Source: Brachionus manjavacas | Taxonomy: Eukaryota > Rotifera > Eurotatoria > Ploima > Brachionidae | Assembly: GCA_019054805.1 (NCBI GenBank) | Contig: JAHQIY010000023.1 | Coordinates: 248,001 to 312,000, forward strand | Length of the DNA stretch: 64,000 nucleotides | Direction: 5' to 3' | Part shown: one piece after another, positions 12,101-36,687 of the stretch | How positions within the stretch are numbered: position 1 is the stretch's first letter | Layout of the letters: each line of letters opens with the position of its first letter | Notes under the pieces: generated by a model | What the model saw: only the letters and a program-made list of their open reading frames with translations | Database searches by the model: none | What the model was told of the DNA's origin: nothing | Made by a program: the position numbers and the translations under genes

Positions 12101-15100
12101 TATAAAAAAAATTTGAAGATTTTGAGAGAAAAATAAAGGAAAATCTTAAAGATAAATTAGAGAAAAATGTACGATAAATTCAACAAAAAACTCTACAAAT
12201 TTTTCCAAAATTTCTTTAAAGATCCTTTATAATTTAGTTGACTGGGTAGCTGATTCAGAAAAAATTTGTTCATGTGAAATTCACTACAAAATGAACAAGA
12301 CTAGACTTTTAAAATCTAAATTCTTTGTATCTTCAATGAATAATAATTATCAAAATTAAAAATTAACATTACAAAACTTAAATCCCCAATTGTATAAATA
12401 CAAAAGCATAATTTCTTGTCTTCTTACTCTATTTTACTTTATTTTTAAATTTACTTTTTTGATTTTTTTCTTTTTTTTATTTTATTTAATTTTTTTTTTG
12501 ATTTTTTGGTTTTATTCTAAAGGAGCTTAAGCTCGGTACAGTTAACAAAAAAATAAATAAATATCTTCAGAGTTTATTTCTGAGGATGCAAGTGACAAAA
12601 ATTTTTTTTAAAGTTTTAATTCCAATAAAAAATTTAATCGAATGTTATTTTACCATAAATTTTCCTCAAAAAAGTTTGATGAGTTTTTCTTGAGCAAAAT
12701 TTAATCTGTAAAAAAAACAAAAAAATGGTGCCTCCAGTGTTAAAGAACCGATCGAAGTCATGATCGAAGATCTCTAAATCAAAACTTCAGACCTATTTAG
12801 CTTTAATTTTTATTTAAAAAAGAATCTGCGAAAAAGAAAAAACCCAGGAGAAAAAAAATTGACTTAGACTCACCTGATGGATAAATAGATTGCTTTAGAA
12901 GATTATACACAGCTTTGCGCCTCTTTTCTAATAAAGCTGATTTTGGCGTTTTGTTGTTCGAAAGCCGAAATAGAGAAGAGTCAGAAGTTGTTTTTCTCAA
13001 TGGTTTTTGATTTTCAGTGTCGGTGTGCTTAACACAGACATCCAATTCTTTGATTTCGTTCGCTGGATCATTGATCGATTCACTATCATATAATCCAACA
13101 GGCGTTGGGCTGTCTGACTGAAAGTTCGAAGAAAAAGTCTTCGGGGCTATACCAATGGGACTAAAAGTGGTATTTTGCTGAACAGCAAATTTGTTTGATG
13201 AACGCGACTGGTCTAGGGGCGAGATTTTGGGCGGCGATTGGTCTTCGTCCAAACAACTCGACGAGGGTGTTAAAAACGACGAAGATGTGGGCTTAAAGAC
13301 TATGCCAGAAGGTTTGAAGTTATTAAAATCGTTTATGGTAGAGCTTTTGACGGGAAGTATTTGCTTGATGGGCTTGGGCTTTATTTTGCTTTCAAAAATC
13401 TCATTTGTTAAATTTGGAATGAGATCTTCGACGTCCGAGGGACAACTGAGCTGCTTTCTTATTCCTTTTGGAACAAAAAAATCTTTGCCCTTCTTGTTTT
13501 TCAGCACTTTAGTTCCTGGTTCACTTTTTTGCCTCTCTAGTTTATTTCTCCACTTCCACTCTGGATTTGCCTTGAAGTGGTCCTTTTTTAGCTGAGAAGC
13601 TATTTCGTGGTAGAAATTTTTCTCCTCTTGATTCAAAGCGTACCATCTTTCTCCCAGCATTTTGCTCACAGCGCGATTATCACAATTGGGATGTTGTTGA
13701 TGAATCAGAGGTCTTTCTTTCTTGCTAAAAATCATGAACGCATTCATTGGCCGCCGTACATGGTCGTTGCCAAAAGAAAATCGACCAGCCACATTTAGTT
13801 CATGCTCGGACACATTGCGCTTTAAATATGTCATTTTGGCCTTTTTTTCGTTTTCCCTTTTCAGATTTTCGTCGATCAGAGCACCATCCATTTCCTCAAG
13901 ACATTTGCCAGATTTGGAATCGCTGGGTTTTTTGCTCTCGGTTTTGCTCTCGCTTGAACCAATCTTCGAATCTCTAGCTTGCCTGTCCAAGTCCTCTTGC
14001 ACCAGGAGAACACCTGCGCCATTGTTTCTGTCATTGTCGTCATCGCTCAGCGAAGGACTTTTCTTGCCTGACAAATTAGAGTAGTCGGCATTGGCTTCGT
14101 TGTCCTCTTTTTCCTCGTCTTCCTCTTCGCCTTCTTCGTCTGAATTCTCGTTTTCTAGATCAGTGTCAGGATAAAGTTCTACACTTGTTGTGTCGTAGGT
14201 CTTGCTTTGGCTGCTGTTACTTCGCTCCGATTTCACGGATGAATTGATTCCGACTAGAGCATTCGCAGCGCACAATTCATCGTCTGTTCTCAATTTGGAT
14301 TTGGGCATTTGGTTGTAATCTTGCACGAGCCATTTTGACGAATTAATTGACTGAAGCAAATTGGAGTTGTGAAATTTGGAAAGATTTGCTGAGCCGATGC
14401 CAAAGGCCATTTCTTTTTCTGGATTTAAATTGAACGGAGCTTGAGCCATGCTGCTAGATGATGGAGCCAGTGAATTTTGAACTTTTCTTCCACCGGATCG
14501 TTGAGTCAAATGTCTGGAGCAAAATCCTTTTCTTTGAGATTCTTTTGAACAGTCTTCTTTGGAGCAAAGTCTTCGCCATTGTTTTCCGTTGAATTTTTTC
14601 CTAATTCCATTTGGCGTGGTCACTATGTCTCCTTTTTTATACTTTGTGTTTGCATTAAAACTTGTTTGCTGGTAATTGTCCAAATTTAGGTTCAATGGGT
14701 TTGTGTGGATTTCTTTTGACTCAGTTTGTGCTTGAGCAAGTTTGGAAGAAGTCTCTGCAGGAAATCCTTGGAAAGAAAAATAATTGAAGTCGAGACAACG
14801 GCATTCAAATAAAGGAAAATAAAGGAAATTTAGACGTTCAGTGTCACAATTTAAATTTGAAAAGAAACAAAAATTTAAATTTACAATTTAAAGAGGAAAA
14901 ATTTGTTTTAGAATTTTGAATTGTTTTTGCCAAGACGCTAAATGAAATGTTCTAGCCTTTTCCCAACATTTCCAAGCTGAAGCAGTAGTTTACTTTTTCT
15001 ATGAAAAGTCTAGCCCCTTGTAGACAAGCTCAAGTAAGACAGTTGTGGCAAAAATTTAGAAATTAATTATTTTATTTATCTAAAATTGTTTGTTTATTAA

Positions 15101-18100
15101 ATTCAACGAAAAGTTGAGTGTATAAGAAAAAAAATTAAAAACTAAAATTTGAAGAGTTTTTTTTTCTACAATTTGATTTATTGCAATCGGCATAAAAATA
15201 TAATTATTAAATATTAAATGTTTATAATCAAAAAACTTCCTTTAAAAATTAAAAGTCAGTTCAAAAGATTAAATAACTATATCCATCTTTTTTCACACTG
15301 TGATGATTATTCCTAGCATATTTCTTAATTTTGAATAAAATGTGCTCCTAAACTGCTTAACTCCAACTCCATATGTCAAATTCCTAATTCAGGAGCAATC
15401 AGGTTTTGGAAAAAATCGACGAACCGCTGATAATCTCTTTTTCCTTATTCAAAAAATTGTGGAATCATTTAATAGAAAGAAGAAAGTTTGTTCCCTATTT
15501 TTTGATATCTCCAAAATCAAATCGTATGGTGCTCTGATCAAAATGGATGGTGCTCTATTTTTTGATATCTCCAAAGCGTTCGATAGGGTTTGGCATCATG
15601 GTCTTATTTATAAACTAATAAAGATGAACCTTCCCCCTTACCTAATACATTGGATTAATTCGTTTTTAGACTCAAGATCATTTAAAGTAAATATAAATGG
15701 TCACATAAGTGATGAATACCATATTACTGCATGTGTTCCTCAAGGCTCGGTAATTAGTCCATTATTTTTTAGTATTTTTATCGATGATATTCCTAAAAGA
15801 AATAAAAAAAAATAGCGAATACTCTCTTCTTTTTGCTGATGACTTGGTTACATTTTATATTTTTTAGAAAAAAGGAAATCTAGAAAATAAGATAAACAAT
15901 TACTTAGACGAACTAGAAAAATGGCTCTTCAAGTGAAAAGTCTTGCTTCATTGTCTTCACTAATTATAATAAGGAAAATATTTACTTAAAATTAAAAATA
16001 TATCAAAATAAAATTGAGAGTCAAAATATAAATCTTTAATCGGATCTATAATTGATTACTCTTTTCCGTGTCTAAATTCATTTTCGGAGACAAAAATTAA
16101 AAAGATTCAAGTCTTACAAAACTCAGCTGCTCGTTTTATACTTAAACTAAAATATGATACTCCTTTAAATATTGTGCATCATGAGGCCTTTAATAAACTT
16201 AAATTCTTAACTGTCTCGAATCGACTTTTTGAATTGAGCGAAAGATATGTAGCGGGAGGACTGCGTCATTCTGTTCCATTGGTTCTCAAGCTGGTTGATG
16301 AATATAAGGCGGATTTTGAATCAAGGTATGTTGAATACCCAACTTCATTGTGTAATTGCTATCTTACTATTTCTTCTTTCTTTCCTGAATTGTTCAATTC
16401 TTAAATACTTTTCACATGTCACCTCTTACAATTTATAAATTTTTTTAATTGTCGTTTTATTATATTTTAACTTATTTCAATTTTTCTTATATTTTTTCTT
16501 TACGTTTTTACTTTATTTTGTCGTAATTTTTATTTTTATTTTTTTTTAAGCATTTTTTTCATTTTGAAAAATTTTTATTTTGAATTTAGATTTCACTAAC
16601 TGGAATTGTCATAAAATTTATTAATTTTAGAGCTTAAAAAAATTCATAAACAAATAAAACAAAAAAATCTTAACTCTCTATTTTTTAAGAAAATGAAACT
16701 TTATTCAATTCAATCTTGTCAGCTCCTTCCAGCTCTTTATTTAATAGAGAAATATTATTTAATCCTTCTTGTCCTATCGAGATCCTTAAACTGTTTTTTA
16801 GACATTTTAATGTATAATAAGATCCTTCGGAACTTGCATTACTAATTTGGGATACAGTCAACCCTCGTTAATTCGGACAAGTTAACTTTTAAGATATTCG
16901 GCCGAATTAGCGATTCTCCGAGATATCGTTATCTCGGAAAATTGTAATTTTAACAAAAAGTTCGGATTGAAGAAAAAAGTTCTATAAAAATTTTTTTATT
17001 GATAAGCATAACAAAAAAACAAGTCTAATTAAATGTATAATTGGATATATTATTTACGAATAAAATTATCAAGTGTCGATTGTTTTTCTTCTAATTTATA
17101 AAACCTTAGTTTATTTGACAAATTATAAAAAGTGTTTGTATCTTCTTCACTTAAGCAATTCTTATGCTGTTAAACATAATTAGCAATGATACTTAAAGAT
17201 TCGACTAGACTTTTGTAATTAACAGTATTTTCTTCTATAACTATATCATTCTCGGACTCATCGTTTACCTCGCTTTGATTTTTGACTAAATTTATCATCA
17301 TCATTTAAAACTTAGCTCTACTTTTTTCTATTATTATTATCAGATGTTACTTCTTTCATTTTTTAGAAAACAAAGAATTGAGAGAAGAAAAGGAGAAAAA
17401 ATAATGAAAAAAAAATAATTTTATGCTTAATTTTTTTTCAATAAAAATTAATTGCTTATATTTCTTAACAAAACTTTATACAATTTGTTTAAAAATGCGC
17501 CGGATCTTGGCTATTGGCTTCGCCGGATTAAAGAGTTTAAATATAATGTATTTTACACAAAACAGGTTTTTTTTGGTCCAATTCCTCCGAGTAAGCGAAT
17601 TTTCCGAGGTATCGAAGGCCGGATTAAAGAGGGTTGACTGTAGTAGTATAAATTCTGAATAACAAAACACGATTGTAAACATTTCCTTAACAAGTTTTAT
17701 TAAAAAAAGATTTTTTAAAGTGGGCAATTTTTTTTCTTCTTTAATTGCTTGTAATTAAAATTGAATGTTTTTTTTGAAATGATAACATAAGTCTAGTTCA
17801 GTAAATAAATTATCCATGGAAAAAAAATTCAAAAAATTCCTTAACTATTAGACATCTTTAGATGATCTAAATTATAATCAAAAAAATTAAGTAGCAATTG
17901 GATTAATGCTGGAATCATAAAATCTTTCATTAATACAGTCATTAAATGAATCAATAATATAGCAATAAATTTTGAAAAATGATTGCTGAGCACCCCTAGG
18001 CTACGCTCGTGTTGGCGATGATGGTGGTAAAGAGTGGCCCAACATTTTGTATTTTAATGTTGCATCTATATTACTTTACTGGGATTCGGACCCAAACCCT

Positions 18101-21028
18101 CAGCCACAGTAAGCTCTTGTTTTACACTGTTCAGTGTTCTAATTTTTATAATTTTCAAACTAAAGTTAGATTTATTAAAATATTTTAGAGATTTTTTTTG
18201 ATTTTTAATTAAAAAAAATCGAAATAAATTTTGAAAAATTTTTGAAAATTATCAAATTAATAAATTGTTTACGAATGAATTGTTTCCGCTTTAATATAAA
18301 ATTAAGTAGAAAAAGTTAAGCATCCATTCAACGTTTTTTATGACATATTTTTCAAATTAATTTTCATATAAATAGAGTTCAATGATTCTGATCTTTGGTC
18401 TGAACAAAAAAAAATATTGCTGATCTACAGAATGGTGAAAAATAAAGTTTCAGAATTTACTCAAAAGTTTTCAAAAAATGTCTAGAAAAAAAATCTGCCA
18501 ATATAATGATACTTTTTCTGCTTGAAACGAACAAGGGGTAATAACGATAAGTGTTTTTTGATCTCAGATAACTTTTTTTTGAAAAGTTTTTTTTAGCGCA
18601 AATAAAAAATGATAATTTTTCTATTTTATTTTCTACAAATTTTTCAATTGATATAGGAATGAGCTATTTCTCAAATGAGCTATTTCAATGGACAACTGTT
18701 TTTCTGTAACATTTCCGTTTTCTTTTTCAAACTTCTAATGTCATTTTATTAATTTAATTAATTCAACACAACTTTTTATATGGACACTTTTTTAAAATTT
18801 TAAATACCAAAGGCGAAAGGAGTTCCATTACTCAAAGCCTTTATTTCTTTTGAAATATTGAATAAACTATTAACAACAAGGACCTAACCCATTATATATT
18901 TTTTTAAATTGATTGTAAAAATAACCCCATAAATAAAAAGATACCGCTTGCGAAAAAAAACTTCTTGAAAAATTTTTTTTTTAAACAATGACTCTTTGTA
19001 GTTTTTGATAACAGTTCTCGTTTTATTAAAAAAAAAACACATTTAAAAAAAAAATTCACTTTTGGTTGTACCGTTAATTGGTTTGTTTTGAATTTCTATA
19101 TAAAAATAAATTGATTATTAAAAGTTTCTTTTATATAATGATCTTTTTTTTTAAATGCCAAGAACAAACTTTAAAAATAAACCTGCTCCCAATAAAAATA
19201 CACTGACGAGTCACTGAATAAAGCCATGAACGAAATTAAAATTAGAAGAAGAAGAGCTTTCAAAAAAAGAAAAAAAAAGAAAAAAGTCTGATAAAGCACC
19301 AAGTAATGTAGATCTAGTAGTAGAGCCAAATATGAGTTTAAAAAATGAAAGAAATTGTTTCAAATGTAAACAAAAATTCGGTTCCGATAAAAAAATCAAC
19401 CTAAATGGATTTCGTGTGAAGGATGCTCTAACTGGTCATGTGCTAAATGTCTACCTAAAAATTTTGATCCGAAAAGTGAATTTTATTGTTCGAAAAAATG
19501 TAAATAATAGAATTTAAATTAATTTGATTTCGTTTTTTTTGTACATACTCATCTTTTATTTGTTTTTTGTATTTTATCACTTTTACCCCAACCGTTGGGG
19601 TCAAACCGTTAACAAACCTCATTCCCTTTAAATGTGTACATTTTTTTTATGATTTTTTATTTTAATAAAATTTTTTTTCAAAATTGACCGAAAGTGTTTG
19701 AATTTTTTAAATCCTATCAAATAATACCAATCCAATTAAATTTCCAGCCCCTAGACCTCTTTGAATAAAACAAATATCGAATTTACCCCATTTTACTTTA
19801 ATTAGGAAAAAAATGTTCAATTACCTAAAATAGGTGTACTTCCTGAAAAAACTTGCAATCCGCACTTATTCGACAATTGTATTTGTTTTGAGAGGAACTT
19901 TTTCAAGCTTTCAATCAAACTCATATTAAGCTTTAGATCAAGTTCGTCTTTGTATTCGTCAAACCAAGGGGGCTGCAGGAGACGAAGATTTGGCCGATCG
20001 ATCCATTCGTGATTGACTAATTCAGAGATAAGAGAATTCGATCCGAATTCGAGACAAATTGGTTCGACAAGAAAATTTTTCTGCTTCTCAATGATTCTTC
20101 CCAGCCGATATTTTGTCGCTTTTTGATTTTTGCTTGGATCCACCAGGCTACTGGCGGTTGGCATCGGCACAGACGTTGGCGTCGATGAATGCGAAGAACA
20201 GCTCACGTTTTGGTTGCTCACACGAAAAAGAACGAGGATGCCTTTTTCTAATTTATCTAGTCTAGCCTGGGCGTCCTCAATTAAAGAAAATCTCTCCTCA
20301 TCTTTGGAAACATCGAAGGTGACGCGCTCCTCATTATACAACACGGTCACAAGTGTTCCATTCACGGTCTCTATGTCCCCTGGATAATAGTTGATAAAAT
20401 TCAAGTCACTGTCCAATTCGTCATTGTATTTGAAACTTTTCCTAAGTGCCAAGACCCTGGTTTCTCGCCACTGCGACAAATCAACCGGAACTCTTCTACT
20501 CTCCACCTCAGTATTACTGATCATGCGCTTTTTCAACGGTATATTGTAGTTGCTCGGCGACTCTAGCCGAATGGTGCTGCTAGGCGCCGTCGAAGTAGAC
20601 TTGGAGAAATTGGCCATTGAATTTAGTGGGACAGGACTTTGTAATGACGGCGCCATGTTTGGTGAGCCTAGCAAAAGAGATTGATGACCATGCGGTAGGT
20701 TAGACGAGAGGGGTCGCGAAATGGGATTCGATAATGGCATTGAATACATGGAATTATAGTTTGATAAAATGTGTAAAGCCAAGTTGTTGGTTCTTGTCGA
20801 ATCTAGGCTATTTTCTGCTTGGAAAAACTGTGCCAGATGACTAAAACTCTGAATAAAATCAGTTTGGTTTCGGTTGTGAATATTTTCATTGCTACTACTA
20901 TTATTATTATTATTATTACTACTACTGCTATTATTACTAATTAATAAGTTTGTATTTTCGCTGTCCGTACTCAAGCTATTGCTATTTTTATCTTTATTAT
21001 TTTGCTGCTCGCTTGATTTTCTCTTCAT
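8894..21028 (-). CDS. CIC: Capicua transcriptional repressor, long (CIC-L-like) form, whole gene
   Basis: Three coding exons, 21028-19825, 14766-12874 and 9120-8894, sum to 3324 nt, exactly 1108 codons, with both introns in phase 1 and GT..AG borders. Order in the protein: the N-terminal domain of the long isoform (about 178-390), a basic block before the HMG box ([13 protein letters not shown], about 459-469), an acidic Ser-rich stretch, the HMG box (about 738-809) and the C-terminal C1 motif, which spans the second splice junction. Capicua binds TGAATGAA-like sites through the HMG box plus C1 and represses targets until relieved by RTK/MAPK signalling; it acts in the nucleus. The ATG at 21028 is the only Met before an upstream in-frame stop near 21136. 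This is one of the few clearly intact host genes here. Confidence 0.93.
9121..10539. other. Capicua intron 2, distal part
   Basis: AT-rich intron DNA. I see no gene, and the short frame near 10191-10385 looks like chance. A short GGTGAC-containing patch near 9540-9660 has somewhat higher GC but no recognisable structure. Confidence 0.35.
10540..12246. mobile_element. Tc1/mariner-like remnant with TA target sites, in capicua intron 2
   Basis: CCCAGTCAA at 10540 is flanked by TA (10538-10539) and TTGACTGGG ends at 12246, flanked by TA (12247-12248). Behind both tips lie loosely matching blocks such as TTTTGTAG and TTTGTAGAG. No transposase remains. A hAT-like unit (10817-11579) sits inside. 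Confidence 0.5.
10817..11579. mobile_element. hAT-like non-autonomous element nested in the previous one
   Basis: The inverted ends share GTTTAAAAGTGACTAGTCTTT (left) and its near complement AAAGACTTGTTACTTTTAAAC (right). The left tip is CAGAATC, flanked by CTTTTA on both sides, a partial target duplication. The termini resemble those of the complete hAT MITE at 38398-38628. Inside, near 11230-11310 on the plus strand, a short frame encodes [20 protein letters not shown], a small cysteine-rich zinc-ribbon-like piece. Confidence 0.45.
12400..12560 (+). mobile_element. Isolated LINE 3' end in capicua intron 2
   Basis: AAAGGAGCTTAAGCTCGGTA and CAG followed by an (AAAT)n-like tail (about 12519-12560) match the 3' end of the LINE at 3390-5345. 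The upstream T-rich stretch corresponds to its 3' UTR. It is a severely 5'-truncated insertion. Confidence 0.6.
12874..14766 (-). CDS. CIC: Capicua coding exon 2: HMG box
   Basis: The acceptor follows a pyrimidine-rich tract with CCAAG at 14770-14767; the exon opens with phase-1 bases that complete Gly (GFPAETSSK). The HMG box lies at 13759-13544 ([17 protein letters not shown] ... [18 protein letters not shown] ... EWKWRNK), preceded by the CIC-specific block [15 protein letters not shown] and KGFCSRHL near 14610-14510. An acidic run ([12 protein letters not shown]) sits near 14150-14110. The exon ends with [17 protein letters not shown], the first half of the C1 motif, at a strong donor (GTGAGT, 12873-12868). 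Plus-strand frames over this exon are shadows. Confidence 0.95.
14767..15341. other. Capicua intron 1, proximal to exon 2
   Basis: AT-rich intron sequence ending in the exon 2 acceptor. No gene or clear repeat is seen. Confidence 0.35.
15342..16404 (+). mobile_element. Same LINE family, copy 3, in capicua intron 1
   Basis: RT pieces are [50 protein letters not shown] and LFADDL, then [20 protein letters not shown] and [19 protein letters not shown] at the end. A short direct duplication repeats FFDIS around 15500-15570. Frameshifts and stops occur between the blocks, and about 200 codons are missing between the catalytic motif and the C-terminus. It lies antisense to capicua. The typical 3' hairpin tail is not seen. 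Confidence 0.8.
16405..16852. other. Capicua intron 1 spacer
   Basis: AT-rich; the left part may be LINE 3' UTR. No gene is seen. Confidence 0.3.
16855..17640 (-). mobile_element. Tigger/pogo-like element with TA target sites, internally deleted
   Basis: CAGTCAACCCTC at 16855 and GAGGGTTGACTG ending at 17640 are perfect inverted tips, with TA outside on both sides. Further in, TTAATTCGG and CCGGATTAAAG continue the pairing. The minus strand keeps the C-terminal end of a pogo-type transposase (separate entry). At 786 bp it is a deletion derivative. Confidence 0.75.
17050..17302 (-). pseudogene. C-terminal remnant of a pogo/Tigger transposase
   Basis: Reads [20 protein letters not shown], then [10 protein letters not shown], one stop, then [20 protein letters not shown] and [13 protein letters not shown] before TAA (17052-17050). 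An acidic linker followed by a coiled segment and a Lys-Gln-Ser/Thr-x-(I/L)-x-x-(F)-(F/I) ending is typical of jerky/Tigger transposases. The DDE core is deleted. Confidence 0.55.
17643..19154. other. Capicua intron 1, repeat-poor stretch with a SINE-like patch
   Basis: Near 17990-18125 GC is higher. On the minus strand TTGGGTCCGAATCCCAG there looks like a tRNA T-arm/pol III B box, so a truncated SINE is possible, but no matching A box is convincing. The rest is AT-rich with no gene. Confidence 0.3.
19155..19507 (+). pseudogene. Small basic protein with C-terminal PHD-type zinc finger, decayed
   Basis: Starts [19 protein letters not shown], passes a Lys/Arg-rich block near 19245-19285, then [23 protein letters not shown] and FYCSKKCK before TAA at 19505. 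The Cys pairs with a Trp between them follow the PHD-finger layout. About three frame breaks are needed to read it (near 19217, 19285 and 19400). It lies antisense in capicua intron 1. It may be the tail of a transposase or a retrocopy; I do not recognise the parent. Confidence 0.45.
19508..19824. other. Capicua intron 1, next to exon 1
   Basis: Contains an AACCGTTGGGGTCAAACCGTT patch (near 19589-19610) and the exon 1 donor. No gene is seen. Confidence 0.35.
19825..21028 (-). CDS. CIC: Capicua coding exon 1: N-terminal domain of the long isoform
   Basis: 401 codons plus one base. Residues 20-55 are Ser/Asn-rich, encoded by AAT/AGT trinucleotide runs (about 20889-20940) likely to vary in length. 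From about 178 ([20 protein letters not shown]) to 390 it matches the conserved N-terminal region of CIC-L, with two SH3/Tudor-like strands ([19 protein letters not shown] and [19 protein letters not shown]). The donor (TTTTAG followed by GTAA at 19824-19821) overrides an in-frame stop a few codons later. Short CIC isoforms lack this exon. Confidence 0.9.
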
Positions 21029-21145
21029 TTCATCTCGTTTAAGAAAAAAGACTCCAAAAAAAAGAATACAAATATTACAAAAGTCTAATACTATTTTACA
21101 AATACACCGGGATAAAAAATAAATGTAAAAAAGCCTAAATATCTG

Positions 21146-25592: not shown

Positions 25593-25999
25593 GTAAAGAA
25601 CAATACACTGTTTCCATTGAAATTTTGCCCTTTTATATTTTATTTAAAAAAAGAGGGTTCAACTTAATTTTTATATCAAAATAAAGGTTTTTTACTCATC
25701 TTTCGGCAAAATTATCTAATTTTTTTAGATTTCCAAAAAAATGTCAATTTTGGCAAGATGAAAATCTACATTTTTTCATAATAAACTTTACAATTTTACT
25801 TGCAAGCAGTCGTTGTTTCTTTTTTCTTGGTGAAAAAGAATAATTCTCTATTAAGGATTTATTTTGCTTAGAATTGAATTAAATAACAATTTAAAAATAA
25901 TAAAAAATATCTTTTGATAAAAGTTAGATAATTTTTAAATAAAAATTCAGATTAAAGATGCAGAAAACTTAATGAACCTTATTAAATACTTAAAATCTT
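25593..25999 (+). repeat. Left terminal inverted repeat of the 11-kb element
   Basis: Pairs base for base with 36687-36280 apart from a handful of changes (for example AGTTAGATAA here against AGTTATGTAA in the partner). It has no ORF. Confidence 0.9.
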
Positions 26000-26315
26000 C
26001 AAGAATACAACGAAAATTTTAGCGTTTGAGAGTTATTTTTCTAAAGATTTAAGTTGTAATTTTTATTTCATTTAACAAAAAATAATTTTAGTTACAAAAA
26101 GTTTTTAAATAAGATTACATAAATATCTATTTAAAAAAGAGGATAATTTTTGAGTCATCTTCTTCGTATTTTTCAATAATCAAATTTTTTCCAATTGAAA
26201 ATAGAGCATTACATATTAAATTGGACATAGCATATTTTTTAAAAATTGCACATAAATTAATTTATATATAAATTCATTTTAAAAATTTTAGACAAAGTTT
26301 AACTGAAGCTAAAAA

Positions 26316-26938
26316 ATGAATTTAAAAATCAATGATAAAGTTTCATTTAAAAGATCAAATGGTATAAAATTAATATCATGCATTATAATTAAATATTGTT
26401 TAAAATTTTTTTTTAAGGATTAATTCAAATAGGATTTATTAAGAGTATAAATCAAGAAAAATTAGAGCTGGTATGGAATAGTAATCAGAGGACTTTTGCA
26501 AAAAATCTTCGAATTGAGGACGTCAAGCTTGTTAAAAATAAATATTTTTCCCTTAAAACATTCTTAATATCATTGATGGTTGTCATTTTTAGTTTGTTTG
26601 GAATTTTGATTGGGGAAGGTGTTTATGTTAACTATGTTGAACAAGAAATAGCATATAATAAGTGCTTGCCGTATAAAGATTTAAGTTTTTTTGTTTTTTT
26701 TTTCACAGACTTTTGTTCAAAGAGTCCTTCTTTTCTAAGAGCAATCCTTGTTACTTTTTCTGATATAGCTTCTAGTATAGGGCATTGTGGTGGTCTCTAC
26801 TTAAATTTTTTTTTTAAAGGATTATTTACAAATGTTGGAATTTTTGGATTTTTTCAAATTGTTATTTGTGTGATCACCTTTGTTATAATTTTTTTAACTT
26901 TAATTTTTTTTATATGTTTATATGCTAGAAAAAATTAG
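26316..26938 (+). CDS. KOW/Tudor-like domain plus transmembrane protein, two exons, 188 aa
   Basis: Exon 1 is 26316-26361 (MNLKINDKVSFKRSN), then a 56-bp intron (GTATAA...TTTTAAG), then exon 2 at 26418-26938; phase 1 is kept. The joined N-terminus DKVSFKRSNGLIQIGFIKSI...LELVWNSNQRT looks like a small SH3-fold KOW/Tudor barrel. It is followed by TM segments around FLISLMVVIFSLFGILIG and IVICVITFVIIFLTLIFFIC, with a Cys-bearing loop between. AATAAA follows near 26965. Part of exon 2 (AILVTFSDIASSIGHCGG) faintly resembles the chloride-channel CLIC-like membrane region, but I would not rely on it. It lies just inside the left inverted repeat and is probably cargo. The frame is intact. Confidence 0.55.
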
Positions 26939-27206
26939 TGTAATATTATTGTTTTTTCTTTAAAAAATAAAATTTTTTTAAAATTTAAATAAGAAAAATA
27001 TTATTTTATGGACCTTGTTAATGCAGAGAAGTCCGCTATGGGTCTTACTTTCGTCCTGGGTCTCGAGACCAGCAAAAAAGTTCCGCAATATCGTTCCTAT
27101 TTGATCGTTCCGCAATATCGGGATGATTCGACTATTCTGGCCTTTTAAAGAGAGACCAGCACGAGTCCTTATCCTTATCGCTGGACTAATTTTGTGCTAA
27201 TAGCTC

Positions 27207-27563
27207 TTAATACGAGCGCAACCAGCTGCCGACCGAATCATGAGACCGTTTTGTAGATTGGCAAAGAGCGCGTGAGTGATTGGAAATTCCTAATGGAAAG
27301 ATATCTGTGGGTAGAGCGAAGTAGGCGTCCACCTTTACTTTTTCCCTAGATATAGAGCTGTGAGCTGTGAGACCCTTGGCCTGAATCTGACAATCATCGA
27401 ACTGGGCGAAAATTCTTTCGACCTGGTTGCAAAGAAGCTGGTGGTAGTAGGTGGAGGAGGCTGTTGGAGATCCCTCGCCTATTTGATCATTTTCCTTATC
27501 ATTTTGCTCTTGAAGCTCGTCTTCCGAGCTTTCTGGATTGTCCATGTACCTCCACGATTCCAT
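27207..27563 (-). CDS. Unknown 118-aa ORF in the GC-rich island
   Basis: Starts at ATG 27563 (MESWRYMDNPESSEDELQEQ): an acidic Ser/Glu-rich N-terminus, then YYHQLLCNQVERIFAQFDD and a basic tail. No motif is recognised. The acidic start and small size recall viral or retroelement accessory proteins, but this is only an impression. It may be a fragment. Confidence 0.35.
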   Translation of the reverse strand: MESWRYMDNPESSEDELQEQNDKENDQIGEGSPTASSTYYHQLLCNQVERIFAQFDDCQIQAKGLTAHSSISREKVKVDAYFALPTDIFPLGISNHSRALCQSTKRSHDSVGSWLRSY

Positions 27564-27755
27564 AAGGAATTATGGAACATTACTAATTAATTCCATAATT
27601 AATTAATAATGTTCGTGTCTTTGTCCCAGAAGTATTTACTAATTACCGGGCGACCGAACTTCCACTTATGAATTAATGAATAATTAGGGTGATTAGTGGT
27701 GGGTGAAAGGATATTGTTGACTAAATCGATCCCCGGTGTGAGCTTTGCTAGTTCC

Positions 27756-27920
27756 TTAAAACCGCATCCTGCTTTTTGAGCGAGTGCGAGACTTAGCTGT
27801 AGCTGTCTTGTTGCCTCCTGTTTTAGGAAGCCTTCCTGAGGAGCTAGCAGGCTTTGTGGCTACCACTACTACGTTGTCCCTCTGTGGGATGTAGCTTGCC
27901 TTATCTAATGAGAATATCAT
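27756..27920 (-). CDS. Unknown 54-aa basic ORF in the GC-rich island
   Basis: ATG at 27920. MIFSLDKASYIPQRDNVVVV is followed by a Ser/Thr/Lys/Arg-rich half (RLPKTGGNKTATAKSRTRS). It lies 192 nt upstream of the 118-aa ORF on the same strand. The basic tail suggests nucleic-acid binding; the family is unknown. Confidence 0.3.
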   Translation of the reverse strand: MIFSLDKASYIPQRDNVVVVATKPASSSGRLPKTGGNKTATAKSRTRSKSRMRF

Positions 27921-27999
27921 GATCTTCAAAAAAATTTAGGGTCCTATCCCAGCTTCCTTTAGAGACTACTTAACTACCAAAACAAAAAAACTTCAATTG

Positions 28000-29000
28000 T
28001 ATTAGAATAAAGTCTTTTAAAGTTTATAATAGTTTTTAACCACAATTATAAAAAACGATTAAAAAATTAAATATTAATTATTAAATTTTTCTAATCAATA
28101 AGTGGCTCAAGGATACGAGGTCAGCTTTTTTAATGACAATTGGTGCTATTTGTAGAGTACCACAAGTAAAATTGTGATTAATTTGCAGGAGCATTAGGAC
28201 TTAAAACAGTCAGCATAAAAAAATGAATAAGTCTTAGATTTGCAGGTTAAATAAAATTATGAAAGTTTTTAAGTTTTTTAAAGTTATTAAATTCAAATGA
28301 TTATTGATAATTCATTGCATATGTAAATGAGTAAAAAGAGATAATATTTTTTTATTAAGAATTCGAATCCAAATCATGTCACAAAAATATAACATTAAAA
28401 AAAACCTATTTATTCTTCAGCTCAGATTTGGGCTCTTTTTGACATTTGATTTGATTTTTTGGGGTGTTGTGAATTTCAAAAACAAATAGAAAAAAATTCA
28501 TCATGTTTTGATAAATCAAAATTAGAGTTAATAAAAAATATTAGAAAAAATAAGGCAACAAACTGCAACAAAGTATGTTACACTTTATCGCCTTAAATAA
28601 AATTTTTTATTCTATTTTCTGTTTTTTAAATTCACAATACCATTAATGGTAAATAATTTATTTGTTTATTTGTAATTTTATATTTTTGTTAAATAAATGT
28701 GAATATTAAATATCTTATAAAAAATTCCAATAAAATGATGATTCGTTCGAATTTATCCATCTATTTTCCTGAATCAAAAACCAAGTTCAGATGCAAAAAT
28801 TAAGATTTTATCATTCAAGTGAAATTTAAAATTAAACATTGTTTTTTGAAATAAAAGTGATATTCTAAAAAAATGATATTTTTCCTTTTCTCTAAATTTT
28901 TTTATCGCTATTAATAATCTAATAAAATATACACTATGTTTAAAAAGTTAATTATTGTATTTAGCAAGTAAAAATTTATTTAAAAAAAATTTACATAAAA
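28000..29000. other. AT-rich spacer inside the 11-kb element
   Basis: No open frame or repeat is seen. It is the region downstream of the homeodomain-like gene. Confidence 0.35.
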
Positions 29001-29552
29001 TTAAATTGATTTATTTTTTTTTAATTCTTTTCTTCTTTTTCTGTAAAACCATTGACTGATTTGTCTTCTTGTGATCTCGAGATTCTCTGCCAATTCAGAT
29101 ATTTGTTCTTTTTGTGGATATGCACACACATTTTCAAAAAATTCATTCAGTTTTATTTCTTCGTTTAATGATATGCGTTTAGACGAATTAAATTTTTTAT
29201 TTCTTGAATTTGAAATCCATCTTGATATTTGACGGACCGACAAATTTGTTTTTTTAGCTAATTGAATCTTTTCATTTCGAGAAAATCTTTTTTGGTATAT
29301 GAGTGCATCGTAAAGAATCCTGCGATTTTTAAAATTTATTCGTTTTTTTGAATTTTTCTTAATAGGCTGATTATCATTTTTCTTGGACTGTTTTTTATTG
29401 ATAAATGTATTGAAAACTTTCGATAAACTTCGAAAAGAGACTTTCGAAGAATTAAAAAACATTTTAAAAGCATTGGTAGAAAATCTCCAGCTTAAGTTAG
29501 CTGAAGCTCTAAGTGAAGTGAGTAAAATGTTTGAATAACGAATTAATGCCAT
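29001..29552 (-). CDS. Protein with two tandem homeodomain-like HTH domains, 183 aa
   Basis: From the ATG at 29552 (MALIRYSNILLTSLRASANL). The first HTH (about 70-125) ends in a helix-3 motif SVRQISRWISNSRNKK. The second (about 128-182) ends in TRRQISQWFYRKRRKE. Both follow the homeodomain pattern W-(F/I)-x-N/R-x-R-x-K; the canonical Asn51 is kept only in the first. The frame stays open upstream to 29699 through a very hydrophobic stretch that overlaps the 123-bp array, so I prefer the internal ATG. Harbinger transposons carry a second gene for a Myb-like DNA-binding partner that brings transposase to the ends; this gene could play that part. That role is inference. The frame is intact. Confidence 0.7.
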   Translation of the reverse strand: MALIRYSNILLTSLRASANLSWRFSTNAFKMFFNSSKVSFRSLSKVFNTFINKKQSKKNDNQPIKKNSKKRINFKNRRILYDALIYQKRFSRNEKIQLAKKTNLSVRQISRWISNSRNKKFNSSKRISLNEEIKLNEFFENVCAYPQKEQISELAENLEITRRQISQWFYRKRRKELKKNKSI

Positions 29553-29680
29553 TTTAAAAATAATCTTAAACATCAAGATAAAAAGATTAAAATAAAATAT
29601 TGGAATAATAATTATATCAAAAAAATCTAAAATTAAAATACTAACGACAAGAAAAAAATTTTTAAGGTAAAAGATATAGA

Positions 29681-30417
29681 ATTTGGAAGAAAAAACCATA
29701 ATTTTTATCTTTTCTAAAGATATGTTTTCTGCCTTAAAATAAGTTTTTTAGTATAAAATTATTTATTGAGGTCAATTTCGATTTTTTATGTTAAAAAAAT
29801 TGTATTTGGAAGAAAAACTATAATTTTTATCTTTATTAAAGATATGTTTTCTGCCTTAAAATAAGTTTTTTACTCTAACAATCTTTATTGAGGTCAATAT
29901 CGATTTTTTATGTTAAAAAAATAGAATTTGGATGAAAAAACTATAATTTTTATCTTTTTAAAGATATGTTTTCTGCCTTAAAATAAGTTTTTTAGTATAA
30001 AAATCTTTATTGAGGTCAATATCGATTTTTTATGTTAAAAAAATAGAATTTGGAAGAAAAAACTATAATTTTTATCTTTTTTAAAGATATGTTTTCTGCC
30101 TTAAAATAAGTTTTTTTAGTATAAAAATCTTTATTGAGGTCAATATCGATTTTTTATGTTAAAAAAATAGAATTTGGAAGAAAAAACTATAATTTTTATC
30201 TTTTTTAAAGATATGTTTTCTGCCTTAAAATAAGTTTTTTTAGTATAAAAATCTTTATTGAGGTCAATATCGATTTTTTATGTTAAAAATTTAGAATTTT
30301 GAAGAAAAAACTATAATTTTTATCTTTTTTAAAGATATGTTTTCTGCCTTAAAATAAGTTTTTTAGTATAAAAATCTTTATTGAGGTCAATATCGATTTT
30401 TTATGTTAAAAAGTAAG
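29681..30417. repeat. Minisatellite, six units of 122-124 bp
   Basis: Units begin (at ATTTGG or ATTTTG) near 29681, 29804, 29926, 30048, 30172 and 30296. Each contains AAAGATATGTTTTCTGCC, a run TTGAGGTCAATATCGAT and TTTTTATGTTAAAAA, with slightly more divergence in the first and last units. The array touches the 5' end of the homeodomain-like gene. Each unit has an AGGTCA hexamer next to an ATCGAT-like core (the first unit varies). Confidence 0.92.
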
Positions 30418-30647
30418 AATTTTCGCTGAAACTTGATTCAAAAAAGATATTCTTAAAAATATAATATTTTTTATTTCGATAAAAAAGTTGTAGTAAAATA
30501 ATTTTTTTTCAAACAAAATCTAAAAGGAGATGCAATTATATATTTTTTTTCTTTTTTTATTTTGTTTAAATTTCAAAAAAAGTAAAACTTTATCATCTGC
30601 CCATATAATTTCTAATAAAAAAATGTAAACACTGAAACATTTTCTAG
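30418..30647. other. Short spacer upstream of the 3-exon gene
   Basis: AT-rich. It ends in an acceptor-like CATTTTCTAG at 30638-30647. Any upstream exon of the next gene is not seen. Confidence 0.3.
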
Positions 30648-31353
30648 TCATTTTCCTCCAAACACTTTTCATGGTGTAAGCAACGCTGTGGCATGTGATG
30701 ATAAACTTCGTTGCCTAAAAATTATTGAATTTTCAATATCTCCAAATCATTCATTGAATTGTTTCGACAAATATCTACCAATTATTTTTGGCGATTCTCA
30801 GATTGGTTTTTATCCACGGGATGGAGGCATTTTATTTTACCATCAAAAAAATTCAGAAACATGTCAAAAAATTAAAAGGTAATTTTTGATTGCAGTAAAT
30901 TTTAATTTTCTTACTCTAATTTCTTTTGTTAGGTTTAAAATAAATGAAGAACAAGTTCTAATTATAATTAGGGAAACAATAGCAATTAGCGACATAAAAA
31001 ATGTAGAAGAGACAATTGAATGGCTCTTATTTAAAAATAATGAGTTCGCTTGTTGGCTTATGTTCTCATTTGGATTATACGATGAAGAAAAAAACAGAAT
31101 TTTTTATTTTGTTGGATTAAAAGTATTTTTTTATTTGAAGATTTGAATTTAAAATTTGTTATCTATTTAGGATCTAGTGTTTATCGGAGCTTGTCTTCTT
31201 ACAGTGAAATCTATTTATACAAAACTGTGCATAATTTACATTTGTATTAAAGTTTTAACAGAAGAATCAAGAGTAAAATGTCAGATAAAAAAGTTAATGA
31301 AACCAAAAAATCAAAGTAGATTTTTCAATTTTTTTTGTATTTTTTTCAAATAA
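30648..31353 (+). CDS. Unknown multi-exon protein (at least three exons)
   Basis: Exons 30648-30878, 30933-31122 and 31171-31353 join with GT..AG introns of 54 and 48 bp and keep phase (2, then 0). The product includes CDDKLRCLKIIEFSI, FDKYLPIIFGDSQIGFYPRD, KINEEQVLIIIRETIAISD and a hydrophobic DLVFIGACLLTVKSI near the end, finishing at TAA 31351. No start Met is evident in the first exon, so a 5' exon is missing or tiny. I do not recognise a family. The consistent splicing argues for a real gene. It sits 110 nt upstream of the transposase on the same strand, within the 11-kb element, and so may be cargo. Confidence 0.45.
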
Positions 31354-31465
31354 AAGTTTAAACTATATTTATTATATCACTCTAATCGATAATAACACAA
31401 AATATTATTTTTATGAAATTTTTAAGAACTCAATCTTCATTTTTTAGATAAAAAAATAAATTAAA

Positions 31466-33291
31466 ATGTCCACGAAAAAGATAGAAACAGCTATAAATTC
31501 GCATAATTGCTGTTTTATTTGTAGACGGAAGCGTTCTGATAGGATTAAACTGCGAACAATTAATAAAAATTCAATTATTCATGCATTCAAAATGAAAAGA
31601 ATAATTATTGATGAAAATGCAAGATGCTGCAGAAACCATCTTGATAATAATGGTTGTATTAAAGAGGAACTTTATGGTCAAATTCGTACAAAAAAAAAAT
31701 TATAAGAATCAATTAATAAAAATGTTTGATATGTTTGAAGTCGGTGAAAAAAGTGTGTTTGAAAAATTTAAAGATATTTCTTCTGTTCAAGACTCACATT
31801 GTATTGAAATTACAGGTTGGACAAAAAAACAATTTTTAGACTTTTCTAAATTCATCACTAGCATAAAAAATAGTAAAAATCGTTCGAAAGAACAGCTGAT
31901 TGCTCTTTATCGATACTGGTTAAGAACAGGAACAAACCAATCAGTACTTGCTAAAATTTTTAAAAAGGGATGTTCTCAACAAGCCATTAGTAAATACTTG
32001 TCTCAAATACGAAAGGCAATAAACGATGATTTTGTTCCATTTTTTCTTGGAGCTGATAGAAAAAGAGAATTTTTTTGAAACACAACAATGAAATGGTAAC
32101 AGAACTTCTATCAATTAAGAATGAAGAACTTGTTATTGTTTGTGATGGTACCTATACTCGCATTGAAAAAAGTCAGAATAATAACTTCCAGTATAAAAGT
32201 TGGAGTGTTCAAAAATCAACATCATTACTTAAGCCTTTTATTATATGCTGTAGTGATGGATATATTATTGACTGTTATGGATCATTTTCTGCAAATATGA
32301 ACGATGCTTGTATATTTGAATATATATTGAAGACAGACTTAGCTCTAAAAGAAAAGATTCTTCTTCCTGGAAAAACAATTATCTTTCTCGATAGAGGTTT
32401 GTAAAAATTTATAATTTGCACTAAAGAATTTTATTATGTGAATTGTTAAAAATAAAAGATTTATTTAAAAGGATTTAGAGATGTCGTATTACAACTTAGA
32501 GAAAAATACGATTTTGATGTAAAAATTCCAACTTGTCAGCAGTTTTTAAATAATGATTTGGATGAGTCTAATTTAAAATCTAAACAGCTTTCTACCAAAC
32601 AGGCTAATGAAACACGAATGGTAACAAAGGTAAATTAAATTATGTTTTTTTTATTAAAATTTTATTTGATTAATTAAGTGTCGATTCATAGTTGAAAAAC
32701 AATTGGCGAAATTAAAAAATTTAGGGCTTTAGAAAATGTTCGAAATACAGCTATTGGTGATATTCAAATTGACTATCGAATAGCATCAGTAATGATTAAT
32801 TTCAGCCATATTAGTTGTTCCCCTGATGGAAATCATGGAAAAAAATTGCGCGAAGAATGATTAGAAAATCAAAAATAACCAAGAATGAATTAGAGTTTTT
32901 AATAGGAAAACATTTGGAAACAAAATTGATAGCATCTATTTCGATTTCAAGTATTGTTGATTTTCCAATTCTAAGACCAAAACAAATGATGAGAAAGTTA
33001 TTTCTTGGATCATATCAGTTAAAGCAAGCTAGAGCCTACGCTGATGACCTTTTATTTAATAAAACAGCTTACATTGTTAGCTCAAGATTGATGAAGAATA
33101 TGTCAAATAGGGTTTTAACTGATGAATATGAAAATTCAAAAATCCTTGCATTTGAAATAATTTCACGTCATAGAAGATCTAAAAAAATCTAAAAGATATT
33201 GGGCAAACCAGCTATGTTAAACAGTTTAAAAATACATACAAAGTTTTTATCAAATATATACCTGGATTAAATCATTCGAAGTCAATTCAAG
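31466..33291 (+). pseudogene. DDE_Tnp_4-type transposase, N-terminal and catalytic part
   Basis: From MSTKKIETAINSHNCCFICR: a zinc-binding head (CxxC at 31505 on, then RCCRNHL), an HTH_Tnp_4-like helix-turn-helix (KEQLIALYRYWLRTGTNQSV, then GCSQQAISKYLSQIR) and the DDE core. Likely catalytic residues are Asp in VCDGTYTRI (32144), Asp in FLDRGFRD (32390) and Glu in RFIVEKQ (32693). Two introns split the core, 32397-32471 and 32630-32678; both restore the expected protein. Then comes FPILRPKQMMRKLFLGSYQL, the linker known before SWIM domains in this family. Frameshifts are seen near 31690 (A-run), 32070 (T-run), 32722 and 33187, so this copy is probably inactive. It is followed by a 60-bp intron and the SWIM exon. 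Confidence 0.82.
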
Positions 33292-33351
33292 GTAAATTCA
33301 AAATTTTACACTATTTACTAGGTAATCTTTTGATTTTAATTTTTATTTAAG

Positions 33352-34505
33352 CTCATATATGCACATGTTTGTCAGGTCGTCGAATAGTCGGATGCTGTAG
33401 CCATGTCGCAACTGTGATTTATTATTTAAGCTATTTAAAATATAGAACACCTGGTATCATATCAAAAGGAAGACATTTAAACGAAATTCCTATCGATATA
33501 CAGAATCAACAGTTGCCTAACAAACCGAAAAATATTAAAGGAAAGAGAAGTAGAAAAGAAAGTTCAAGTGATTCGGAATATACTACTAGTTGTTCAGATT
33601 CAAGTGATATTGAAATTGAAATCCTTCAAAAGGAATTGAATCAAACTCATGAAATATCATCAAACGATTTAACAAGTATTGAATCATTCAAAAATCACAT
33701 ACCAAAGTGGGGAGCTTTCATTGAATACAAAGGGAAAAAAACGTTTTTGTTTCAAAAACTTGCTCAATTGATTATATTCTTTTAGCATTCTGGTATCTTT
33801 ATAAAAAAATTCTTCTTATTTTCAAAATATAATAAGTAACAAGTTGACTATAGTTATAAAAGACATTATAGATGAAGTGGATAAAAAGAATTTCGATAAA
33901 GCTAAAGAATTATGGATTAAACAAATAATGAGCTATGATACAAAATTAAATTTTTCTGAAAATTTTATTGAAATATCACTTGATAATAATGAAGAAGATA
34001 ATTTTTCAAAGAATTTAAAAGAATTTCAAAAGTATGTATTTATTCAACAAAGTTGTTCAAGATGTGAAAAAATGAGAGAAATATTCCCAAAGAATCTGAT
34101 GTCATACTTTTTAAAAAATCTAATTCAAAAATTAAGTTATCAGCTGAAAATGAAGAAAGATGCAAGTCATGCAAGTTGACTTTTGAATTCAACGTTAAAT
34201 TTTTTAATCAGCCTACATTTTTGTTTATAAAATCAGCAGAGAAGAACATTTTTATCCATGAATTACCAGATGTTATAACATGTGATAATAGAAACTATAA
34301 TTTTCTTTGTGCAACTTTAAACAAACCAGGCCATACTGTTTCAATTTTTAAGCTAAAAAATGATTTTTATGTGGTTGATGACATATATAAAACTGTCAAA
34401 AAATTATCTAAATATGGAAAAAATCTGAAAAAGAAGAGAGATCATTTTTATTTTCAAAAAGCAACCATCAGTTATTCATTTTATTATTTAATCAATAGTT
34501 TTTAA
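33352..34505 (+). pseudogene. SWIM zinc finger plus USP-like cysteine peptidase, C-terminal part of the transposase gene
   Basis: After intron 33292-33351 (phase 1) the frame reads HICTCLSGRRIVGCCSHVAT, a SWIM motif (CxC...CxH). An acidic Ser-rich linker follows, then IPKWGAFIEYKGKKT. In the next frame TCSIDYILLAFWYLYKK (about 33754) has the look of a USP/C19 cysteine box. Further on are SCSRCEKM (34050), a second Cys-rich patch, then YNFLCATLNKPGHTVSIFKL and NDFYVVDD (34300-34380), which resembles the USP histidine box (G-H-x-x-x...W/F-Y-x-x-D-D). TAA closes at 34503-34505. Shifts near 33740, 33800 and 34165 break it. SWIM attached to this DDE family is known; the peptidase assignment is my inference. 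Confidence 0.6.
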
Positions 34506-34889
34506 TTTTTTTTAAAATTTTTTTGAATAAACAAATTATTAATTCATTTTCTATTTACTAACATTTAAACGTTATAACAAAAAAAAAATTTAGACGTATG
34601 TTGATTTTTTAAATATATGTTGATAAGTAAAAAAATTAAATATTAATTACAACTAATATATTTACAAAATTTTAATGGATCGCAGCAAATTTTTTACAAT
34701 TAAATTATACAAAAAGCAACAAAGACAATTAACCAGAACAAGTTAGAAGGAAATATTAATACAAAAACAATGGATCAGAAACATGAAACAGGATGAGAAA
34801 CTAATTCTCTTGTTCTGGTTGAATCAGTATCATTTAGTTTTTCTAATTTAAAATGTTCCCTTAAAAATTGAGAATTTTCATATTGGTTT
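34506..34889. other. Convergent 3' flanks with a hairpin
   Basis: Lies between the 3' ends of the plus-strand transposase gene and the minus-strand secreted-protein gene. AACCAGAACAAG near 34729 pairs with CTTGTTCTGGTT near 34811 (12 bp, about 70-nt loop). Confidence 0.35.
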
Positions 34890-35430
34890 TCATAAATACA
34901 AACATCCTTTTAATGAAATTGTGTAAAAAAATGCCATTTTTTTATCTTTGTAAATTACTTCGAAGCTATCGTCATTTGTCTGATTATACACTTCTTCAGA
35001 AACGATTGCAGATTGAAGCTTAAAAAAATTTTGCTTATTCTTTTATAAGATATTTTTGAAAAAACCTCGTTAAGATCTCTCAAAAATGCTTTGGCAAATT
35101 TTGGTTGTGCGCACAGACAAGGCTGTCGATCAATTATAGGAACATTTTGGTCCTGGCCCTTTAAAAATATTTAAAAGGAAAATGCAAGACAATTTATTAC
35201 CAAAATCTGATTCCGATTATCAGCTGAAAAACGTGAGACACCATTTTGACCAATACTTAAGTTCAAATCTGAATTTGGGTTCTTAATTTAAAAATAAAAA
35301 AATTGCTCAGCTTTTAGAAAAAGAAATTACATTTTTTTTTGAAAAATAATTTTTTTTTCAGTAATGATACAGATAAGCAAATTAAAAATACAGTCAAAAG
35401 AACTATAAAAAATCTGGTCATTGATATCAT
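34890..35430 (-). CDS. Predicted small secreted protein, four exons
   Basis: Exons 35430-35371, 35281-35201, 35158-35066 and 35018-34890, all joined in phase 0 by GT..AG introns of 89, 42 and 47 bp; each exon is a multiple of three. The start MISMTRFFIVLLTVFLICLS is a textbook signal peptide (ATG 35430 or 35421). The mature part has SRFSADNRNQILGQDQNVPI, IDRQPCLCAQPKFAKAF and LQSAIVSEEVYNQTNDDSFE, with few Cys. The family is unknown. The first exon stays open upstream of the ATG to about 35574, and the plus strand is also open there, so exon 1 is the least certain. It is inside the 11-kb element, next to the right inverted repeat, and probably cargo. Confidence 0.5.
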
Positions 35431-35589
35431 ATTTATATCAATTCTGATATCTATTGAATTTTTAGAATTGTTCAAAAAGTTTGAAACTGTCAAATTCGTT
35501 GAAATCGAAGACTTTTTAGCTGCAATTTTTGTACTTGACCAAAATTTCTCCAAAAACGCATTGAACGAACTCACTTTATAAAAGAAATA

Positions 35590-36279
35590 TTAATGAAAAA
35601 AAACAAGTTGAAACCGGATGGTAAAGAAAAGCTTAAAGAAACTTTTTGAGTAAAAAAATAGATTAGAAAAGAAGATCAAAATACAAAGAAATCGGTTCAA
35701 ACTTCTTTTAAAACAGATTTCATAAGGCCATTAAAATTTTGAGCTAGGTTAAAAAGAGACTGACTGAAATTTCAAAATCAAAAAATTCATTTTTTAAAAT
35801 GACTAATCATTTTTTGAAAATTTTGTTTCAATAAACAATTAAAAAAATTTTTCTTGAGATGTATGCTTTAATTTTTTATTAATTTTAAATCATTAATATG
35901 GAAAAAATAAATTGAAAATAATATTTCAAAATGAATATTGACAAATGAAACAAAATAAAACTTAACAAAAAGTTTAAATATTTTAGATTATATTAAATTT
36001 TTAATTGCTTTTGCTTTCCTCTGCGTTACTGGTTTAAATTCATTTTTTTTCATTTTTATTTCTTTTTAAAAAGTAGTCGATAATTGATGAAAAAAATTTA
36101 TGATCAAAAATAAGTAAATTATTGATAATCCAAAATACTTTAAATTATTTACCTTTTTATTTTGGTAAAGCCTTTAAAGGGAAATAATCATTTAGATAAA
36201 AAAATTTTTCAAATCATGAATATCATCCCAAATAAAATAAATCATTGTTTTTTAAAAATAAATTAAATAAATATAAAAT
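35590..36279. other. Spacer inside the right end of the 11-kb element
   Basis: AT-rich, no supported gene. It could hold the promoter of the secreted-protein gene. Confidence 0.35.
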
Positions 36280-36687
36280 AAGATTTTAAGTATTTAATAA
36301 GGTTCATTAAGTTTTCTGCATCTTTAATCTGAATTTTTATTTAAAAATTACATAACTTTTATCAAAAGATATTTTTTATTATTTTTAAATTGTTATTTAA
36401 TTCAATTCTAAGCAAAATAAATCCTTAATAGAGAATTATTCTTTTTCACCAAGAAAAAAAGAAACAACGACTGCTTGCAAGTAAAATTGTAAAGTTTATT
36501 ATGAAAAAATGTAGATTTTCATCTTGCCAAAATTGACATTTTTTTGGAAATCTAAAAAAATTAGATAATTTTGCCGAAAGATGAGTAAAAAACCTTTATT
36601 TTGATATAAAAATTAAGTTGAACCCTCTTTTTTTAAATAAAATATAAAAGGGCAAAATTTCAATGGAAACAGTGTATTGTTCTTTAC
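36280..36687 (-). repeat. Right terminal inverted repeat of the 11-kb element
   Basis: Inverse of 25593-25999. Homology stops sharply at both borders, as expected for a transposon end rather than gradual decay. Confidence 0.9.

Follow-up and report, generated by a model that had tools for sequence, protein, structure and literature searches.

Within a 64,000-nucleotide stretch of the genome of the rotifer Brachionus manjavacas (contig JAHQIY010000023.1, positions 248,001 to 312,000; hereafter the window), the block at 25593-36687 is a multi-gene DNA transposon of about 11 kb, inserted precisely into AAATTT without duplication or loss of the target. The transposon is young and recently active, and, judging from protein similarity, four of its genes recur together in relatives much older than the young copies. 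Our reading, to which we give a probability of about three in four, is that the element is a probably autonomous transposon of the PHIS kind (DDE_Tnp_4) with Spy-like insertion, in which a homeodomain protein would serve as helper and the genes would be kept by selection.

Element ends, copies and insertion site

A preliminary description of this DNA had noted near-identical inverted ends of about 407 bp, and alignment bore this out, with 25593-25999 and the reversed 36280-36687 agreeing at 99.3% over 408 columns with one gap. Because the outermost GT/AC matches are due to chance and the AAA/TTT that follow are host half-sites, the element proper spans 25598-36682 and its inverted ends measure about 403 bp. 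The left terminal inverted repeat, which starts with GAACAATACACTG, thus occupies 25598-25999 on the plus strand and the right one 36280-36682 on the minus strand, both supported by the repeat alignment and by the ends of the full copies described below. The host half-sites are AAA at 25595-25597, supported by empty partners of three other insertions that read AAATTT, and TTT at 36683-36685, supported by flank comparison.

The genome (114.2 Mb, 61 contigs) was searched with the left repeat as query, and 40 of the 88 candidates were scored, giving 40 listed matches, so that the counts are lower bounds. This search, which the preliminary description had proposed, revealed at least 15 full copies of the same layout (10,721-11,224 bp including half-sites), in agreement with the claim of an 11-kb transposon with several genes. 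Substitutions among the 15 amounted to 0.05-0.30% (105 pairs). They occupy 14 distinct sites with sharp-ended flanks, the number being 14 and not 15 because two copies on C26 (C26a and C26b) have flanks in common. Two truncated left-end copies were also found (C16:42452-49817 and C7:6115647-6120046), along with an older relic cluster at C24:687000-777000, where rearranged, inverted and repeated pieces are mostly 90-94% identical (about 92%).

All 15 full copies have the form AAA|GAACAATACACTG...CAGTGTATTGTTC|TTT, and in the window AAA and TTT each begin at 8-9% of positions. When joined flanks were compared with the fetched sequence, empty partners were found for 3 of the 14 sites. At the C16 satellite site all seven spanning matches read AAATTT, as did the only spanning match for the C2a site, a match located in the window itself (3411-3604, reverse strand). 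At the C23b satellite, AAATTT was present in one of 13 spanning matches, the remaining 12 being diverged units that lack it. The AAATTT of the empty partners, together with AAA and TTT at 15 of 15 copies, therefore establishes exact insertion without duplication. We give negligible probability to the alternative that the block is an immobile inverted or segmental duplication of host genes; flanks are indeed shared through local duplication at three loci (C26, C16 and C7), but the 14 distinct, sharp-ended flanks speak against it and the empty partners refute it.

The preliminary description had compared the element with those of the Harbinger/ISL2EU type. Its insertion differs from theirs: there is no TWA or AT duplication, and the clean insertion into AAATTT is as in Spy.

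Four genes that recur as a set

The genes were delimited largely by inspection, and their products were examined in Pfam scans that took in 10 plus 5 overlapping element proteins. Gene 4 (31466-34505, plus strand, at least four exons) encodes a DDE transposase with a SWIM-like motif and a further C-terminal part. Its exon-joined reading matches PF13359 (DDE_Tnp_4) at E=3e-15, and a catalytic triad, located by eye with its codons checked, lies at 32144-32146 (D), 32390-32392 (D) and 32694-32696 (E). The DDE_Tnp_4 half of the DDE_Tnp_4/SWIM transposase proposed earlier was thus confirmed; the SWIM half fails as a Pfam call (PF04434, E=0.47, below cut-off), though a CxC...CxH motif is visible by eye at 33360-33405 on the plus strand. 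The DDE and C-terminal parts probably belong to one protein, since a relative on C1 (124427-126622) matches both in a single open frame of 1073 amino acids: the DDE part at 124427-124852 with 43% identity, and the C-terminal part at 125528-126622 with 31%. A ubiquitin-protease-like fold for the C-terminal part, suspected from a Cys...Gly-His...Asp-Asp pattern, found no Pfam or PDB support and is not claimed. An AlphaFold2 model of this part, run without an alignment on the C4 copy (385 amino acids), had a mean pLDDT of 31.6 and was not used.

Gene 2 (29001-29573, minus strand, in a frame open to 29747) encodes a double-homeodomain, TALE-like protein, in which PF05920 and PF00046 each match two stretches; its PDB matches are to extradenticle/PBX (best E=0.001). 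Gene 1 (26316-26938, plus strand; exons 26316-26361 and 26418-26938) encodes a predicted two-pass membrane protein with two strong hydropathy peaks, both also present in the divergent C4 family described below. The first part of this protein weakly resembles the KIF2A N-terminal family (PF22923, E=0.0017, below cut-off). Gene 3 (30530-31130, plus strand) has at least two exons with approximate ends, recognized from open reading frames (ORFs) and divergent homologues. It had no match in the Pfam scan, and the idea of a secreted product was dropped for want of a hydropathy peak.

Divergent homologues were sought by protein searches of the whole source genome. All four genes are present at C4:1.050-1.061 Mb: gene 1 (plus strand, 47% identity), gene 2 (minus, 50%), gene 3 (plus, 43-44%), and the transposase (plus, 73%) with its C-terminal part (plus, 28-43% by piece). 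The locus at C10:2.286-2.292 Mb has gene 2 (minus, 33%), gene 3 (plus, 36-41%), the transposase (plus, 64%) and the C-terminal part (38-43%). Genes 1, 2 and 3 lie together at C4:35-38 kb (44-50%). Smaller sets were found on C13 (gene 3, 47-55%; transposase, 73%; C-terminal part, 48%), C50 (genes 1 and 2, 49-50%) and C33 (gene 2, 37%, and the transposase C-terminal part). Gene order and orientation are those of the studied element at all six loci. Many other transposase matches, such as C1:124427 and those on C9 and C35, had no neighbours resembling genes 1 to 3 among the matches of these searches.

The preliminary description had proposed dN/dS (the ratio of nonsynonymous to synonymous substitution) between copies as a check on selection. 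Outside the tandem array the 15 young copies differ at 63 substitution columns (53 of them singletons), which is too few, and divergent families were compared instead; the resulting figures are rough, with base composition uncorrected. Against the C4 family, differences at codon positions 1/2/3 were 34/19/66 of 147 for the transposase, 40/27/57 of 112 for gene 1, 34/26/51 of 92 for gene 2 and 47/38/72 of 127 for gene 3; the stop-free homeodomain gene on C50 gave 36/33/61 of 110. Nei-Gojobori dN/dS was 0.15 for the transposase, 0.46 for gene 1 and 0.44 for gene 3. For gene 2 dS was saturated, with proportions of synonymous (pS) and nonsynonymous (pN) differences of 0.75 and 0.31 against C4, and of 0.74 and 0.30 against C50. 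All four genes thus have pS above pN and an excess of third-position differences, which suggests that they are under selection and maintained together. Two further matches were left out as chance, one for gene 3 (11 codons, ratio 0.42) and one on C50 (E=0.067, pS 0.68, pN 0.58). Comparisons with the C24 relics were mixed (dN/dS 0.36-1.90 in 14 comparisons), as expected of decaying copies, and were not taken as support.

These results bear on whether the element is Spy-like with host genes picked up by chance as passive cargo. Published Spy elements, as described in parts of PMC4482050 and PMC11304231, carry the transposase gene alone, and passengers do exist in our element, namely a GC-rich insert and short right-hand ORFs that are missing from the divergent families. 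Genes 1 to 3, however, recur there with 33-55% protein identity, arranged and oriented as in the studied element, and with pN below pS. Since they recur as a set, they are not best seen as passive cargo, and we consider that explanation quite unlikely. What had been proposed as cargo genes under selection therefore keeps the selection and loses the cargo.

The other genes and the tandem array mentioned in the preliminary description are indeed present. The array (29659-30412) consists of 6.1 units of 124 bp, and across 17 copies the number of units ranges from 3 to 7 by an exact count of a 20-mer core word, which may undercount. The GC-rich (44%) insert lies at 27000-27960 in all 17 young copies, outside the conserved gene set. 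It is partly present in the C24 relics; the best match elsewhere, at C11:658391, extends over 0.58 kb at 74% identity, other matches being shorter. The short right-hand ORFs (34955-35589) gave 72 matches, every one at copies of the own family or in the C24 cluster. Neither was accepted as an additional core gene, as neither recurs in divergent families.

Several genes including one for a membrane protein, along with long inverted repeats, are also what an integrated virus-like element of the polinton or virophage kind would offer. We regard this origin as very improbable: the element has a DDE transposase and lacks a target duplication, no capsid, polymerase or packaging family was significant in the scanned proteins (viral names appeared at E 0.18 or worse), and no relative turned up when viral contigs were scanned with the DDE part.

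Reading frames, end sequences and the proposed mechanism

The preliminary description had called the transposase decayed. In the current assembly only the copy on C11 has a fully open DDE exon, and a fully open C-terminal exon is confined to C2b, C16 and C4, so that no single copy has both open. This favours a non-autonomous family with broken transposases, moved in trans by another source, as do own-family ends on pairs without a four-gene match (for example C10:138794-145233). It is further favoured by duplications inside the window, where mismatches exceed gap openings (for example 21 vs 15 and 58 vs 20), and because of which the assembly cannot be called uniformly indel-ridden. On the other side, of the 419 indels relative to the column majority outside the array, 394 fall in homopolymers of at least 4 and 364 are of 1 nucleotide, and the frame breaks vary from copy to copy. 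Outside the element, the two copies of a 2.2-kb duplication on C7 show no mismatches and 8 indels, 7 of them in homopolymers. The breaks are thus probably for the most part noise of long-read assembly rather than decay, and being mostly copy-specific homopolymer indels they do not require mobilisation in trans, which we consider somewhat unlikely.

The genome was also scanned with a 21-base end pattern, allowing up to 3 mismatches, with the reversed pattern as control. The pattern gave 80 matches and the control 15. There were 47 exact matches: 30 in the 15 full copies, 2 in truncated copies, 5 on C24 and 10 elsewhere. A variant end, AAAGAACAATACGCTATTTGC, occurred five times (C4:34614, C4:1072991, C12:2608950, C13:3160934 and C50:39203), each time within 2.4 kb of a match to one of the four genes. 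Another variant with T, AAAGAACAATACTCTATTTGC, had 16 exact occurrences among the matches listed (C29, C31, C2:9682308 and others), with four-gene matches not close by; these perhaps mark a further family sharing the terminus. Ends facing each other with 0-1 mismatch, 4.3-6.4 kb apart and without a four-gene match, were seen at C10:138794-145233, C6:1569631-1575114 and C2:9424261-9428566, and such pairs are possible non-autonomous derivatives.

For the autonomous transposon that we favour, the transposase would excise the element at its GAAC...GTTC ends and join it between the AAA and TTT of AAATTT; the outcome, with no duplication or loss, is observed, and the chemistry is our proposal. The double-homeodomain protein would most likely bind the long inverted repeats and partner the transposase, by analogy with the Myb-class helper of PIF/Harbinger. 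The membrane protein and the gene 3 product may be selected for some function in the life cycle of the element or in its interaction with the host. A more far-reaching version, in which the element represents a distinct multi-gene PHIS group of four co-evolving genes, appears rather unlikely to us; there, the homeodomain protein would be an end-binding or regulatory partner of the DDE/SWIM transposase, and the membrane and gene 3 proteins would serve something other than transposition itself, for example spread from cell to cell or host to host, or the control of host membranes.

Homeodomains usually carry a W as well as N at position 51. Several observations weigh against the reading that we prefer. 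The second homeodomain of gene 2 has R at the usual N51 position, the W normally present is missing from the first homeodomain of the gene 2 relatives on C4 and C50, and the helper role is itself an analogy. No copy among the 15 has all pieces open in the current assembly, which leaves autonomy no more than probable. For 11 of the 14 sites no spanning empty partner was present in the sequence compared, the rest of the genome not having been searched for these. The genome protein search gave no match to gene 1 at the C10 locus, to the transposase at C4:35-38 kb, or to genes 1 and 2 on C13. In the selection analysis, stops interrupt genes 2, 3 and 4 in the C4-family sequence compared, and the alignment for gene 3 crosses a presumed intron. 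Finally, among the ends listed with up to 3 mismatches there was none at C10 and none on the left side of the C4:1.050 Mb set, and the AAAGAACAATACGCTATTTGC end on C12 sits opposite to where an intact layout would have it, for which reason we regard that copy as rearranged or cut.

Relation to known systems and genomic surroundings

Spy was reportedly described in a 2014 paper. The comparisons that follow draw on parts of the cited papers. With Spy our element shares a PHIS-kind DDE transposase and an insertion that parts AAA from TTT and makes no target-site duplication (PMC11304231), the latter being the trait that distinguishes Spy (PMC4482050, PMC11304231); Spy inverted repeats measure 5-691 bp, and Spy has been reported from arthropods, cnidarians and molluscs (PMC11304231). 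In contrast to the 11 kb and four genes found here, Spy elements are 1,165-5,910 bp long with one ORF, or one or two ORFs according to the discussion of the same paper (PMC11304231). Since the insertion is Spy-like but the coding content is not, we assign the element to the PHIS kind, as one that inserts in the Spy manner, and refrain from classing it as Spy; the likeness is one of insertion and DDE_Tnp_4 domain.

PIF/Harbinger elements likewise encode a DNA-binding protein apart from their DDE transposase (PMC4482050), a Myb-class helper that binds the ends and is required for transposition (PMC4671723). They differ in having a TWA duplication, a mean length of about 4.1 kb when autonomous and a Myb/SANT helper, whereas our element has no duplication, 11 kb and a double homeodomain; no Myb model was among the Pfam matches of the scanned element proteins, and the models that the second DNA-binding protein does match are those of homeodomains. 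ISL2EU shares the PHIS transposase and an AT-rich target, A|AT|T (PMC4482050). Its AT duplication and its YqaJ and THAP proteins were not seen here, and no YqaJ model was listed for the scanned proteins. Pangu, NuwaI and NuwaII make ANT, CWG or C|TNA|G duplications, which the studied element lacks. Large size and accessory genes are shared with the giant eukaryotic transposons reviewed in PMC6431247, in the main text of which neither Harbinger nor Spy appears as a word. None of the PHIS groups, as described in sections of PMC4482050, has a protein corresponding to the gene 1 membrane protein, and a literature search over titles and abstract openings, mostly of top-ranked records, found no Spy element that has several genes and a homeodomain gene among them.

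The PHIS groups in the cited papers have one or two genes. That four genes stay together across divergent families suggests that a transposon of this sort can grow into a larger self-contained unit. The element also lends itself to asking whether the DNA-binding half of a transposition machine can be a homeodomain protein. A natural 11-kb inserter that makes no duplication bears on gene delivery based on Spy, whose reported natural elements are below 6 kb.

In the rest of the window, the minus strand carries an ORF with an HMG box (12809-14887) and, at 19823-21145, a match to DUF4819 that falls slightly short of the cut-off, a pairing that we take to be that of capicua and that points to an animal as the probable host. 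The region 12806-21145 is probably a capicua-like gene on the minus strand, and the transposon begins about 4.4 kb upstream of it. Reverse transcriptase (RVT_1) ORFs lie at 3395-4710, with a second, diverged copy of this region at 15382-16389. Large direct duplications of 0.5-4.6 kb, mostly at 97-99% identity, recur across the right part of the window (38911-63866).

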